64,000 bases of DNA from the NCBI RefSeq assembly GCF_026278245.1, contig NZ_CP111079.1, positions 870,501-934,500 on the forward strand, given 5' to 3'. Source of the DNA: Pontibacter kalidii (GTDB lineage: Bacteria > Bacteroidota > Bacteroidia > Cytophagales > Hymenobacteraceae). The position numbers and the translations under genes are program-made. Shown here in pieces: positions 53,256 through 57,985 of this stretch (its first letter is position 1; each line of letters starts with the position of its first letter). The notes under the pieces are model-generated. The model was not told the DNA's origin. It saw only the letters and a program-made list of their open reading frames with translations, and made no database searches.

Positions 53256-55805
53256 CTATTGTGGACGCTTCTTGGTGCCTCGCGTAGGCTGGGCCGAAAG
53301 CGGATCGTCTGGCCAGTGATGCTTGGGATAGCGGCCACGCAGGTCTTTGCGCACGTCAAAGTAGCCGTTGCTCCAGAAGCTGCGGAGGTCGCGGGTAACC
53401 TGCACCGGACGTGAGGCGGGGGAGAGGAGGTGCAGGAGCAGGGGTACTTTACCGCCCCCGATGCGGGGTGTGTCCAGCATGCCGAATACCTCCTGCAGCC
53501 GAACCGCCAGTACAGGTGTCGCAACATCGGAATAGTCTAAGGCAATGCGGGAGCCGCTGGGCACCTGCAGGTGCGAGGGGGCCAGTCGGTCCATTTCCTG
53601 CCGCTGCTCCCAACTCAGGTCCGAAAGGAGCATCTCCCCTAAATCGAGCCTCGCCACCTGGTCCAGCGAGCGGAGTCCGTAGAGATGTGGTGCCAGCCAT
53701 ACTTCCAAACTTTCTGCCAAGGCCTCATCCGACACATCCGGCCAGTTTTCCGGCTCCAGCTCATGCAGAAACGCAAGCCGCTGCCGTATGCCTGTTGCGT
53801 CTTTTGACCAGGGCAGCCTGTCAATACCTTTTTCGCGCAGCGCCTGCAGTAGCGCCTCTGCAACCTGCTCCTGGTTAGGTTTGGCGATGTTGGACTCTTC
53901 CAGCACCAGTGCGCCCAGTTTGGTTACTCTTCTGGCGGTTACCTGTTGTGTCGCCTCCTGCCAGCGTACTTCCTCTAAAGTCTCCAGCTGTTCAGAAAAG
54001 TGCTCCAGCAACTCTGTTTTAGCGAGTGGTGCCGCCAGAAGTACCCGCGGCTGCTTGCCCAGGTCCAGGTGTGCTATGGCGTAGTAGTCTGCTTCGCCAA
54101 ACAGCTCGGTTGGAAGGCTTGCCCGCTGGCCGGTTACAAGTCGCACCCGCCCCGACGACTCGCGTTGCGCCAGCCGATCGGGGTATGCCAGGGCCGTAAG
54201 TATACCGGCCAGTTCCGGGTTTATACTGGCATCAGTAGCGCGGAGCCGCTGGCGCAGGTTCTGGGCCTGTTCCTTTACCCGGCGCAAGGCATTTTCGTCC
54301 AGTACAAAGCCCGGTGTGTGTGGTCGTTTGCCAGCCAACAGTTCCAGGCGCAGGTGCAGGTCGGGCAGGCCATCTCCCCACGAAAGTTGCTGCGGCTTCA
54401 GCAGGTCGCGCTCCGAAAGTATGGCGGCCAGCGCACAGGCGGTAGCACCGTAGCCTAGTTCATGTCCGCGCACGACCAGGTGGCCCAGGCGCGGGTGCAT
54501 CCCCAATGCGGCCAGGGCCTTTCCGTGGGGCGTTGGGTTTCCGTTGTTGTCTATAGCCTGCAGGCGTAGCAAGAGGTCTTTGGCTAAGGAAAGAGCGGCC
54601 GCAGGTGGTGTGTCCAGCCAGTTGAGTTCAGCAGCATCCTTTACCCCCCACAGGGCTAGCTCCAGCATTAAGCCCGACAGGTCGGCATCGAAAATCTCCG
54701 GATTCTGACGCTCCGGCAACTGCAGCTGATCAGCCGTAGACCACAGCCGGTAGCAAACGCCGGGGCCAAGCCGGCCTGCCCTGCCACGCCGCTGGTCTGC
54801 ACCTGCCTTGGACACGGGCACGGTGTCCAGTGTGGTAAGGCCGGTACGCGGCACGAATTTGGGCACACGGGCGTATCCTCCGTCAATCACGATCCGGACC
54901 CCCTCAATAGTTAAGCTGGTTTCGGCGATGCTGGTGGCCAGCACTACTTTCCGCCTTTTCTGGGGAGATGGCTGTATGGCTGCCACTTGTCTGGAGAGCG
55001 GGAGGTCTCCGTGTAGCAGGTGCAGTTCAACGCCTGCTGCTAACTTTCCCTCCAGTTGCTGCGCCACTTTGCGGATCTCGCCCATGCCTGGCAGAAAAGT
55101 AAGTATGTCTCCTTCCGGTTCCTCGGCAAGCGCTTTCCGTATGGCTGCAGGCACCAGGTTCGTCAGTCGCTGGCTTGGGTAGTTTCCGGCTGCGGCCACT
55201 TCGGCAGGGGAGAGGTAATGTGTCTCGACCGGAAACATGCGCCCCTCGCTGCTGATGACAGGGGCCTCCAGCCAGTTGCCTATCCCTGTGGCATCTAAGG
55301 TAGCGCTCATCACCAAAATACGCAGGTCCGGGCGTAGTACAGCTTGTGCGTCCAGCGCCAGCGCCAGGCCTACATCCGCCTGCAGGTTGCGCTCGTGGTA
55401 CTCATCGAAGATGATGGTCGCAATGCCTTCCAATGCCGGATCCTCCTGAATGAGGCGGGTAAGGATGCCCTCGGTCACCACTTCTACGCGAGTTTTAAGC
55501 GATACCTTATGATCCATCCGCACCCAATAGCCTACTGTTTGCCCCACCGGCTCGCCCAGCAGGTCGGCCATGCGTTCGGCGGCGGCACGGGTAGCCAGGC
55601 GGCGCGGTTCCAGCACGAGGACTTTGCCATCGCTGCGCCAGCTTGCCTGCAGCAGTGCCAGCGGCACCAGCGTGGTTTTACCTGCTCCGGGAGGCGCCTC
55701 CAGCACGGCGCGATTACAGTTTTCCAGGGCATCCAGCAGCCGTGGCAACGCCTCTTTTACAGGCAGGTCGGGTAGTATAGGCAGTAAGTCAGCAGTCGGT
55801 ATCAC
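53256..55805 (-). CDS. hrpB: ATP-dependent helicase HrpB, canonical type (second copy)
   Basis: An 849-residue helicase with the same motif order as the first HrpB: Walker A 'EAPPGAGKTTLVPLA', 'LEPRRLATRAAAERMADLLGE', motif II 'IIFDEYHERNLQAD' (DEYH), 'MSATLDA', 'ATSIAETSLTIEGV' and 'QRRGRAGRLGPG'. Its C terminus 'DVRKDLRGRYPKHHWPDDPL ... PTRGTKKR' closely follows the ending I recall for E. coli HrpB, unlike the shorter ending of the copy at 46130. The two proteins are therefore old paralogues or one was acquired by transfer. Confidence 0.92.
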   Translation of the reverse strand: MIPTADLLPILPDLPVKEALPRLLDALENCNRAVLEAPPGAGKTTLVPLALLQASWRSDGKVLVLEPRRLATRAAAERMADLLGEPVGQTVGYWVRMDHKVSLKTRVEVVTEGILTRLIQEDPALEGIATIIFDEYHERNLQADVGLALALDAQAVLRPDLRILVMSATLDATGIGNWLEAPVISSEGRMFPVETHYLSPAEVAAAGNYPSQRLTNLVPAAIRKALAEEPEGDILTFLPGMGEIRKVAQQLEGKLAAGVELHLLHGDLPLSRQVAAIQPSPQKRRKVVLATSIAETSLTIEGVRIVIDGGYARVPKFVPRTGLTTLDTVPVSKAGADQRRGRAGRLGPGVCYRLWSTADQLQLPERQNPEIFDADLSGLMLELALWGVKDAAELNWLDTPPAAALSLAKDLLLRLQAIDNNGNPTPHGKALAALGMHPRLGHLVVRGHELGYGATACALAAILSERDLLKPQQLSWGDGLPDLHLRLELLAGKRPHTPGFVLDENALRRVKEQAQNLRQRLRATDASINPELAGILTALAYPDRLAQRESSGRVRLVTGQRASLPTELFGEADYYAIAHLDLGKQPRVLLAAPLAKTELLEHFSEQLETLEEVRWQEATQQVTARRVTKLGALVLEESNIAKPNQEQVAEALLQALREKGIDRLPWSKDATGIRQRLAFLHELEPENWPDVSDEALAESLEVWLAPHLYGLRSLDQVARLDLGEMLLSDLSWEQRQEMDRLAPSHLQVPSGSRIALDYSDVATPVLAVRLQEVFGMLDTPRIGGGKVPLLLHLLSPASRPVQVTRDLRSFWSNGYFDVRKDLRGRYPKHHWPDDPLSAQPTRGTKKRPQ

Positions 55806-55902
55806 CTCCCAAAGTTCGGGATTGTTTTTGAGAAAGTATAGGAGGGGAGTGTGGAGGGAGAAGCGGAGGCTATCGGCAGGTTAAGGTTCAGAGTTGATAT
55901 AA

Positions 55903-56010
55903 CTCCTTTTGTCATCTCGAACGCAGTGAGAGATCTCTTTAGAATTCCAGATAGGTCTCTCAGCTACGCTGGCTCCCTTTGGCTCTCGCCTCGAGAATGT
56001 TCGAGACGAC
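55903..56010 (+). repeat. Left ~108-bp inverted repeat flanking the GIY-YIG gene
   Basis: The reverse complement matches 56389-56497 with about eight differences. The arm is itself palindromic at its ends (GTCATCTCGAAC ... GTTCGAGACGAC) and holds AGAGATCTCT and GAATTC. It ends 63 bases before the nuclease ATG. Confidence 0.88.
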
Positions 56011-56073
56011 AGGTTGGGGAAATGAAAGGTAGGAACTGAACTACGCTACACTCATGAACGTAGCGTAACCATC

Positions 56074-56379
56074 ATGGCCTCGCATAACTACTTCGTCTAT
56101 ATTACAACCAACCCGAAAAGAACAACGCTTTACACGGGTGTAACCAATGATTTGCCCCGCAGACTGAGGGAGCATTTCATGAACTGTGGCAATCCCTCTA
56201 CCTTCGCTGGGAAGTACTTTTGCTATAACCTTGTCTACTATGAGCGCCATACACAAGTTGAGCATGCTATTGCGCGGGAGAAGGAAATTAAGAGGTGGAG
56301 CAGGAGCAAGAAAGAAGCCCTTATCTATAGCTTTAATCCATTCTGGAAGGTCCTGAATCAGGAAGTGCAGGATGAGTAA
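56074..56379 (+). CDS. GIY-YIG nuclease (UPF0213/YhbQ-like)
   Basis: This 101-residue single-domain protein has the GIY-YIG motifs: 'FVYITTNPKRTTLYTGVTND' (first strand pair and the GVTND turn), the conserved Arg in 'LPRRLREHF' and the metal-binding Glu in 'AIAREKEIKRWSRSKKEALI'. The C-terminal 'NPFWKVLNQE' is typical of this small family. Such nucleases are widespread in Bacteroidota and of uncertain function. The gene is tightly bracketed by near-identical inverted repeats: the left ends 63 bases before the ATG and the right begins 10 bases after the stop. Confidence 0.9.
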   Translation: MASHNYFVYITTNPKRTTLYTGVTNDLPRRLREHFMNCGNPSTFAGKYFCYNLVYYERHTQVEHAIAREKEIKRWSRSKKEALIYSFNPFWKVLNQEVQDE

Positions 56380-56388
56380 ATAAATGAT

Positions 56389-56497
56389 GTCATCTCGAAC
56401 ACTCTCGAGGCGAGAGCCAAAGGGAGCCAGCGTAGTTGAGAGATCTATCCGGAATTCTAAATAGATCTCTCACTATGTTCGAGATGACAAAAGGAGA
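56389..56497 (-). repeat. Right ~108-bp inverted repeat flanking the GIY-YIG gene
   Basis: The inverted partner of 55903-56010, with the shared outer end CTCCTTTTGTCATCTCGAAC (read inwards from each side). It lies between the nuclease stop and the gltD stop, so it may also affect gltBD transcript ends. Confidence 0.88.
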
Positions 56498-56527
56498 GTT
56501 TTTTAATTAAAATATGGTGATTACAGC

Positions 56528-57985
56528 CTACCCCTCCAGCACTAGCCTCGACACCTCCTTAGAAGGCAGGTCGGACTTGCCTGTCAGGTGGATGTCGATG
56601 GCACGGGCGGCTTCGCGGCCGTCGGAGATCGCCCATACCACGAGCGACTGGCCCCGGCAGGCGTCGCCGGCGGCGAAGATGCCGGGCACGTTGGTTTGCC
56701 AGTCCCGGAGTTTGAAGTTGCCCCTGGAATCAGTTTCAAAATCGAAGCTGGCCTTGAAGGCATCGTGCAGCGGGCGCTCGTAGCCAATGGCAATCAGCGC
56801 CAGGTCGCAGGGCAGTACTTTCTCACTTTCGGGTTTCTCGGTATACTCGTGGCTGTTCTTCCACTCCAGCTCTACCACCTTCAGCCCTTTAACGTGGCCG
56901 TTCTCATCGGCAACGAACTCTTTGGTTAGCCATCCCCAGCTGCGCTCACAGCCCTCTTCATGCGAGCTGGAGGAAGTGTAGGTCATAGGCCACTCCGGCC
57001 ATGGGTTATGCGGGGCGCGTGCCGTAGACGGCATGGTACGATACTGCAGCTGGCTGATAGAGCGGGCAAATTGCCGGTTGGCCGTGCCCACACAGTCGGA
57101 GCCTGTGTCGCCACCACCAATGACGAGCACGTGCTTGTCCGTCGCCAGCAGGTCTTCCTCAGGCGCTATACTTTCTCCGGCCACCCGGCGGTTGTGCAGG
57201 GTCAGGTAGTCCATAGCGAAGTGAATGCCCTTCAGGTGGTGACCCGGGATGTTGAGCAGGCGCGGTTTGCTGGAGCCGATGGCCATCAGCACGGCGTCAT
57301 ACTTGCGGTGCAGCTTTTTCAGGGTGATTTGCTTCCCGATCTCCACCCCAAGGTGGAAGTGAATGCCTTCTTCTGCCAGGATGTCCAGGCGGCGGTCGAT
57401 CACCCACTTCTCCAGCTTAAAGTCCGGAATTCCGTAGCGCAGCAGGCCGCCGGCTTTATCGTCCTTGTCGTATACATGCACCTCGTGACCAGCCTGGTTG
57501 AGCTGGGCTGCCGCCGCCAGGCCGGCAGGGCCTGAACCTATGACAGCTACTTTCTTGCCCGTGCGGTGCAGCGGTGGCTGTGGCTTTACCAACCCCAGCT
57601 CAAAAGACTTCTCGGCTATACTTTTCTCAATGTGCTCAATGGCTACCGCAGGCTTGTTGATCGACAGCACGCAGCTTGACTCGCAGGGGGCAGGGCAGAT
57701 GCGGCCCGTGAACTCCGGGAAGTTGTTGGTGCTGTACAGGATTTGCGCCGCGCGCTCCCACTCACCCTCGTACACGGCATCGTTAAAGTCCGGAATCTGG
57801 TTGCCTAGCGGGCAGCCGCTGTGGCAGAACGGCACGCCGCAGTCCATGCAGCGGCTGGCTTGCTGCCGGGTTTTTTCTTCCGGAAAGGAAGTATAAATTT
57901 CGTTCGAGTCGTTGATTCTTTCTTTAGGGTTGCGGGCTTGCGGCAGCTCGCGGGTATATAGCAGGAATCCGTCTGTCTTTCCCAT
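56528..57985 (-). CDS. gltD: Glutamate synthase small subunit
   Basis: GltD passes electrons from NAD(P)H to the large subunit. The 485-residue protein has the N-terminal iron-sulfur cysteines 'RCMDCGVPFCHSGCPLGNQIPD' (about 41-62), further Cys in 'RICPAPCESSCVL', the FAD motif 'VIGSGPAGLAAAAQLNQAGHEVHVYD' (about 149-174) with 'GGLLRYGIPDFKLEK', and the NAD(P)H motif 'VLVIGGGDTGSDCVG'. Its ATG overlaps the gltB stop by one base (TAATG), indicating translational coupling. Confidence 0.96.
   Translation of the reverse strand: MGKTDGFLLYTRELPQARNPKERINDSNEIYTSFPEEKTRQQASRCMDCGVPFCHSGCPLGNQIPDFNDAVYEGEWERAAQILYSTNNFPEFTGRICPAPCESSCVLSINKPAVAIEHIEKSIAEKSFELGLVKPQPPLHRTGKKVAVIGSGPAGLAAAAQLNQAGHEVHVYDKDDKAGGLLRYGIPDFKLEKWVIDRRLDILAEEGIHFHLGVEIGKQITLKKLHRKYDAVLMAIGSSKPRLLNIPGHHLKGIHFAMDYLTLHNRRVAGESIAPEEDLLATDKHVLVIGGGDTGSDCVGTANRQFARSISQLQYRTMPSTARAPHNPWPEWPMTYTSSSSHEEGCERSWGWLTKEFVADENGHVKGLKVVELEWKNSHEYTEKPESEKVLPCDLALIAIGYERPLHDAFKASFDFETDSRGNFKLRDWQTNVPGIFAAGDACRGQSLVVWAISDGREAARAIDIHLTGKSDLPSKEVSRLVLEG

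Follow-up and report, generated by a model that had tools for sequence, protein, structure and literature searches.

Recurrent pairing of a small GIY-YIG nuclease gene with TGTC/CGTC-tagged hairpin repeats in several bacterial phyla

Why does a small nuclease gene of Pontibacter kalidii lie precisely between two long palindromic repeats, and is the repeat a partner of the gene or merely its neighbour? The gene belongs to a stretch of 64,000 nucleotides (contig NZ_CP111079.1, positions 870,501 to 934,500), here called the window, to which all coordinates below refer unless contig positions are stated.

The nuclease locus and its inverted arms

The original prediction, made from the letters of the sequence, described an intact 101-residue GIY-YIG gene enclosed by two inverted arms. 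This arrangement was confirmed, the earlier coordinates being one base off. The gene (56074..56379, plus strand), identified by the list of open reading frames, Pfam, alignment and a structure model, is preceded by a left arm at 55903..56011, a REPIN-like hairpin pair with a TGTC...GACA core at 55910-56011, and followed by a right arm at 56388..56496 with its core at 56388-56489; neither arm is assigned to a strand. The arms are 109 nt each, inverted, 376 nt apart and 93% complementary, in line with the earlier description of inverted copies differing at about eight positions. A recount of the bases left between arms and open reading frame gave 62 on the left and 8 on the right, replacing the 63 and 10 given before.

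Each arm is composed of a short-tip and a long-tip hairpin, both TGTC-tagged and opposed to each other. In the left arm, the short-tip hairpin occupies 55910..55936 on the plus strand (TGTCAT-CTC-GA-ACGCAGT-GA-GAG-ATCT; contig positions 926410-926436) and the opposed long-tip hairpin 55953..56011 on the minus strand. In the right arm, the long-tip hairpin lies at 56388..56446 on the plus strand and the short-tip one, read from the sequence as TGTCATCTCGAACATAGTGAGAGATCT, at 56463..56489 on the minus strand. Both long-tip hairpins were delimited by their sequence and by copies elsewhere in the genome. An inner palindrome had been proposed for each arm; it is perfect in the right arm (TGTCATCTCGAACA/TGTTCGAGATGACA, 56388-56401 and 56476-56489). 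Taken alone, the 27-nt short-tip half of the left arm gave no stable prediction (z +0.7 against shuffles), which counts against hairpins formed on single strands or in cruciforms, whereas the core of the right arm, folded as single-stranded DNA, is far better than its shuffles (z -6.9) and that of the left arm moderately better (z -2.3).

The site is bordered on the left by a gene at 53256..55805 (minus strand), which we take from its sequence to encode an HrpB-type ATP-dependent helicase, and on the right by a gene at 56528..57985 (minus strand), presumably gltD, encoding the small subunit of glutamate synthase. Positions 55800-56600 gave no match to any known RNA family, and the nuclease locus none to defence-system models.

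The predicted protein matches Pfam family PF01541 with 57.4 bits (cut-off 22.6). Residues Y9, Y20, G22, R30, E69 and N88, which we assume to be catalytic, are invariant across 22 aligned rows. The structure model (mean pLDDT 85) has its best fold match in UPF0213 (E 9e-4), followed by a weak match to Slx1 (E ~0.1, TM ~0.5). By sequence, the UPF0213 proteins 1zg2 and 1ywl are the nearest solved relatives, and 1zg2 is so by fold as well. UPF0213, the type named in the original prediction, is thus the nearest solved relative of the protein, but the unflanked paralogue that is fixed in place (class B, below) is another gene carried by these genomes.

BLAST with one arm as query detected at least 40 distinct arm copies in the 5.05-Mb genome, a lower bound because 40 of 88 candidates were scored and then merged; a pattern count of tagged hairpins gave 44 and 43 on the two strands. 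Besides its single gene of the window nuclease subfamily (class A), the genome contains one paralogue of the GIY-YIG type at 33% identity (class B). Arms lying mostly far from the gene had been named as an objection in case the association did not exceed chance. Indeed, 38 of the 40 copies are away from it, yet the association is far above chance: with 38 copies distributed randomly, the gene would have one on both sides at ~175 bp or less with p ~4e-6. This probability, together with the genus and phylum counts given below, rules out a chance encounter of a single gene with a single repeat.

By eye, most of the dispersed copies that were read (L003-L030) form part of a larger mosaic in which a CGCTCAACCCAAGGACTGGG...TTCGATAGCC module lies to one side of the copy and a AAGTATAATTCCCCTCC...GGAGGGG module to the other; the nuclease locus itself is without these modules. 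The long-tip form is common to both window arms and 20 dispersed copies, and the orthologous locus in another genome of the genus (G011) has short arms, which suggests that arms have been homogenised within the window genome.

Association of the gene with tagged hairpins

Fifty Pontibacter genomes were compared. Class A rows and those of the ~33%-identical class B paralogue came from one protein search, so that the flanks had no role in choosing loci. Among 66 rows at 51% identity or more, 64 were taken as class A, the fragments G012:C6:352793 and G048:C12:64530 not being counted apart; 26 of the 45 rows of lower identity (28-45%) were taken as class B. Hairpin heads of three types were present within 140 bp of 61 of the 64 class A loci, none of the 26 class B loci and 13 of 360 shifted intervals. 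A bracketing inverted repeat exceeding the best of 320 shuffles was found at 46/64 class A and 0/26 class B loci, the high score of one locus (L060) being due to a different long inverted repeat; at another (L050), cut by a contig end, the downstream flank is misplaced in these counts and in the tree labels used below, and the hairpins lie upstream. The 64 class A loci, moreover, are distributed over 20 genomic contexts, while all class B loci share one. The UPF0213-like paralogue is a gene at one fixed locus with no flanking repeats, whereas the class A gene is repeat-flanked in many places, and the possibility that relatives simply share one locus without repeats does not hold.

The units are of fairly constant build. 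TGTCAT stands exactly at -46, counted from the start of the match, in 21 of the 64 class A loci. Both ends were found for 37 genus units, of which 30 measure 384-440 bp, the lengths of L118 and L127 beginning at an extra TGTCAT further out. At L097, L098, L103, L117 and L121, about 19 extra bases (AGAGGGCCCCTACCCCCGGGA-like) separate the left hairpin from the gene and shift TGTCAT from -46 to -65.

On a protein tree of 50 of the 64 class A proteins (fourteen with stops or shorter than 80 aa were left out), the type of flanking repeat changes 4 times, against a shuffled mean of 20.3, a co-phylogeny that linkage alone would also produce. Twelve genomes carry both a TCGA-type and a CTG-type unit. 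Dispersed repeats follow the gene type only partly. The count of TCGA repeats is associated with the TCGA gene type (p 0.003) and CTG repeats with the CTG gene (p 0.03; not significant at two or more copies, p 0.12), but CTG repeats set against TCGA genes give an association of the same strength (p 0.04 and 0.01). The best pair of class A genes within one genome is only 88% identical, which indicates no recent transposition.

For the phylum, a protein-alignment scan of genome contigs yielded 80 loci, nearly all from Bacteroidota (one is titled Verrucomicrobiia, and some are from the window's genus). A bracketing repeat above the genus threshold was present at 55 of the 79 loci scored, L225 being too short. 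Among 303 shifted intervals, 10 had such a repeat, and a single repeat-rich locus accounted for three of them. The hairpin motif GTCAT-nnn-GA-(3-11)-GA-nnn-AT occurs within 250 bp of the gene at 52 of the 80 loci; its density in Bacteroidota falls from 3.63/kb in these 250 bp to 0.67/kb at 500-750 bp, at most 0.10/kb beyond 1.5 kb and 0.00-0.05/kb beyond 1.75 kb. In a second class A set, the best-match loci of 395 genomes (the window's own included), 21 of 29 were flanked. None of 30 Y1-transposase loci from hairpin-rich genomes had these hairpins; L256 and L321 were too short for the class A / Y1 flank scoring, L321 having no motif anywhere. RAYT-type (Y1) genes are ruled out as the repeat partner in these genomes by the same count.

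Presence of the gene also goes with hairpin number. At least four hairpins were counted in 91 of 204 gene-bearing and 25 of 191 gene-less genomes (odds ratio 5.3), gene presence being judged from the best 12 candidates per genome, so that gene-less genomes are possibly overcounted. When gene presence was permuted within families, none of 5000 trials attained the observed value with the gene cut-off set to 1e-10 or 1e-20, and 0.2% did so with 1e-30. Seventeen of the 395 genomes have ten or more hairpins and no class A match; rechecked with PF01541, three of these contained a small or broken GIY-YIG frame, and 14 long frames only or none.

One of these 14 genomes (G051) contains 247 tagged hairpins with neither a small GIY-YIG gene nor a Y1 transposase match. 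In 400 kb of it, 20 of the 22 motif hits form 10 gene-less head-to-head pairs, 21-26 bp apart, several of them with unequal arm stems; the remaining hits are one single hairpin and one chance-like match. There is no sign that the unit is carried by phage or virus: neither among phage records nor, in one scan, among viral contigs was a relative found to be encoded.

The motif used does not require the stem to be complementary. Stems near the gene are fully Watson-Crick paired in 123 of 144 cases (shuffled mean 16.4, maximum 34 in 2000 shuffles), and in 44 of 52 when one arm per locus is counted (5.8 shuffled). Eleven stem types occur among them. The Bacteroidota stem consists of AT, which the search motif demands, and three covarying pairs, followed by GA/GA and the tip. 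Opposed arms within 130 bp make up 99 distinct two-arm elements, in which arrays give some arms repeatedly. The two stems are unequal in 59 of these elements, and in 39 of the 59 each arm is still fully self-paired. Preservation of pairing within arms where pairing between arms is lost favours hairpins formed on single strands or in cruciforms over an inverted-repeat site in double-stranded DNA.

Homologues in a plasmid collection (45 records matched, 36-56% identity to the window protein) extend the association to other phyla. Thirteen proteobacterial loci were read from these records, near-duplicates being skipped, and ten have CGTC/TGTC-tagged hairpins on both sides: Sinorhizobium meliloti, Rhizobium CIAT894, Neorhizobium, two Shinella, Novosphingobium, Sphingobium, Azospirillum, Aeromonas and Neisseria. 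The Photobacterium locus has a hairpin on one side, and no tagged hairpin was found in the flanks of the Rhizobium tumorigenes and Sinorhizobium C101 loci. Over 15 loci (Salinivibrio excluded), tagged hairpins have a density of 4.13/kb in the 250 bp next to the gene and of 0.74/kb at distances above 500 bp. Most proteobacterial hairpins have a stem of 8-9 bp; those of Novosphingobium and Sphingobium lack the AT start. The Salinivibrio protein, 32% identical to the Sinorhizobium one, has flanks without hairpins. In the cyanobacterium Planktothrix, arrays of Bacteroidota-type hairpins, missed by the tagged-hairpin scan, are visible by eye on both sides of the gene. Recurrent pairing of this GIY-YIG subfamily with TGTC/CGTC REPs is thus found in several phyla.

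Some of these loci have features of their own. On the Planktothrix plasmid (L333), the gene and its arrays lie between an MmeI-type restriction enzyme and the DISARM gene drmA. The Neisseria hairpins (L374; CGTCATTCCCGC...GCGGGAAT) resemble the neisserial dRS3 repeat, and the enzyme may accordingly be tied to neisserial intergenic mosaics. At three Rhizobiaceae loci (L325, L326, L330), the stem of the upstream hairpin starts at -46 from the start codon, a spacing close to that of CTG-type units in the window's genus.

Filled and unfilled sites and the possible role of the nuclease

Filled and unfilled sites were compared at four places. At the fnrL locus of Sphingobium, some strains have REP-gene-REP and two have a single REP in the same place, perfect in TYG64 and imperfect in TYG74; at two other Sphingobium fnrL sites no tagged REP was found. 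In Azospirillum lipoferum 4B the unit lies between sufB and sufC, and it is absent from four aligned relatives. In Shinella it is present in two and absent in two. No tagged hairpin was found at the four unfilled Azospirillum and two unfilled Shinella sites. The helicase-gltD site of the window's genus contains the unit in the window genome (G000), G011 and G024, and the two genes adjoin without a nuclease gene in G016, G025 and G022; the empty sites of G016 and G025 have other repeats and a TGTCATCT stub, and that of G022 shows no tagged hairpin by eye. Unfilled sites, which the original prediction had proposed to look for, therefore exist in the window's genus as well as in Sphingobium, Azospirillum and Shinella. 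By eye, neither the unit flanks nor the filled/unfilled alignments, whose partners are diverged, gave evidence of a target-site duplication.

A nuclease-linked repeat system parallel to RAYT/REP, as first proposed, is strongly supported by an association far above chance in the genus, the phylum and the proteobacterial loci, by a repeat type that follows the protein clade and by the unfilled sites. What the data establish is the association, the unit architecture, the covariation within hairpins, the co-phylogeny, purifying selection on the gene and the existence of filled and unfilled sites; that the protein recognises the hairpin, nicks it at the tag and mobilises the repeat is inferred. We estimate at about two in three the probability that the unit is a gene-bearing form of the REP/REPIN system, organised as hairpin(s)-GIY-YIG-hairpin(s), in which the nuclease recognises and nicks tagged hairpins and so mobilises the units. 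Each hairpin consists of an unpaired TGTC tag (mostly CGTC in Proteobacteria) and a short stem. Two hairpins with their tags outward constitute the common gene-less element, and a gene placed in their spacer makes it a gene-bearing unit. The 101-aa protein, a putative structure-specific nuclease, would recognise the tagged hairpin extruded on single-stranded or cruciform DNA and nick it at the tag, whereupon units could be excised or copied. Gene-less pairs might be moved by the nuclease in trans, a step weakly supported by the repeat counts. Counting in favour of this account, besides the associations given above, are the purifying selection on the gene and the weak fold match to the structure-specific Slx1. 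Counting against it are the 17 hairpin-rich genomes with no class A match, the lack of a visible target-site duplication and of recent gene copies, the linkage that could by itself explain the co-phylogeny, the partial match of repeat counts to gene type, the unstable 27-nt hairpin, and the three proteobacterial loci with a hairpin on one side or none.

Alternatively, the nuclease could be a host enzyme that trims or resolves REP hairpins and cruciforms and is kept near REPs, the repeats spreading by other means. Such housekeeping would agree with the strong purifying selection on the class A gene, as judged from a median dN/dS of 0.067 (50 pairs with pS < 0.6), and with the abundance of hairpins in some gene-less genomes; after UPF0213, moreover, the nearest fold is that of Slx1, a branch-resolving enzyme, albeit with a weak E value. 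A housekeeping gene should, however, keep its position, like class B with its one context for 26 loci, whereas class A occupies 20 contexts and displays a repeated unit architecture and unfilled sites. We consider a host function of this kind unlikely.

GIY-YIG enzymes form a homing-endonuclease superfamily (I-TevI type), and the nuclease might cut REP sites and be copied into them by repair, REPs being landing sites rather than cargo. A similarity, weak and below threshold, to a model of a group I intron endonuclease fits this, as do the two Sphingobium relatives with one REP where others have REP-gene-REP. Yet the filled Sphingobium site, the single one compared in this respect, contains two complete hairpins, not one split by the gene, and no tagged hairpin is present at the four Azospirillum, the two Shinella and two of the four Sphingobium gene-less sites, nor by eye at the empty site of G022, though G016 and G025 keep the TGTCATCT stub. 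Homing thus appears distinctly improbable. That a small nuclease gene was caught by chance, and then carried along, at hot spots of insertion formed by the repeats or their surroundings is hardly credible, for although window-genome repeats lie in larger mosaics, as hot spots do, neither Y1-transposase genes of hairpin-rich genomes (0/30) nor the sister GIY-YIG paralogue (0/26) were caught, and the same pairing is seen in Bacteroidota as well as in Alpha-, Beta- and Gammaproteobacteria.

Carried to its full extent, the reading of the unit as a gene-bearing REP/REPIN would describe a new kind of mobile DNA, an element of ~400 bp whose sole enzyme is a GIY-YIG transposase of ~100 aa acting on TGTC/CGTC-tagged hairpins. 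Gene-less REPINs would be its non-autonomous offspring, the nuclease would be the missing enzyme of CGTC REPs, and the element would inhabit Bacteroidota, three classes of Proteobacteria (Alpha-, Beta- and Gammaproteobacteria) and, probably, Cyanobacteria. We put this forward tentatively, rating its chances as somewhat below even. If the nuclease does mobilise the repeats, a REP/RAYT-like lifestyle would have two origins based on unrelated enzymes, and mobile DNA could be driven by nothing more than a GIY-YIG domain.

Comparison with known systems

Slx1 is a structure-specific GIY-YIG nuclease that the window protein weakly matches in its modelled fold; the window protein has no partner domain. 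With GIY-YIG homing endonucleases the protein has the family of the catalytic domain in common, but here there is no intron and no DNA-binding extension in the 101 aa, and hairpin repeats bound the unit.

RAYTs are HUH enzymes of the Y1 type (PF01797), and their REPs carry the tag GTAG, whereas the units described here have a GIY-YIG enzyme (PF01541) and the tag TGTC/CGTC. Since the enzyme is PF01541 and not Y1, this is not a RAYT system. The unit nevertheless resembles one in layout: in both, a small nuclease-type gene is flanked by tagged hairpins, and many gene-less inverted pairs are dispersed. RAYTs and REPINs are the subject of PMC3116915 and PMC8266576. No link of a GIY-YIG gene to REP/REPIN repeats was found in the open-access literature (preprints being outside its scope); the main text of a GIY-YIG phylogenomic paper (PMC1564403) contains neither "palindrom" nor "inverted repeat", and the accessible text of RepRanger (PMC12306157) has no word starting with "nuclease" or "GIY".

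The closest parallel is the CGTC REP superfamily. Sections of the published survey (Di Nocera et al. 2013, PMC3733652) place CGTC/TGTC-tagged hairpins in many bacterial genomes, mainly of alpha-Proteobacteria and also of Bacteroidetes and Neisseriae, with S. meliloti and A. lipoferum among the species. There the repeats are described as having a CGTC tag, often TGTC, a stem of 8-9 bp whose first pairs are A-T and T-A, and a loop of 4-5 nt, and as forming mostly head-to-head dimers. According to the same sections, they "apparently lack a dedicated transposase", no tyrosine transposase gene flanked by CGTC REPs being reported for the CGTC-positive species named. The unpaired CGTC/TGTC tag and the head-to-head dimers are likewise found here. 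Most proteobacterial hairpins also have the AT start, which for Bacteroidota was a requirement of the search motif; the described stem is a perfect one of 8-9 bp, whereas in Bacteroidota the arms combine a stem of 5 bp with a GA/GA interruption and a tip of 5-9 nt. The recurrence of the pairing in several phyla suggests that this widespread family of hairpin repeats has its long-missing partner in the nuclease, and with a defined candidate the origin and turnover of the repeats become testable by hairpin-cleavage assays. In those sections the superfamily is presented without a dedicated enzyme; here its hairpins flank a GIY-YIG gene, and they do so in S. meliloti and A. lipoferum of its own list.
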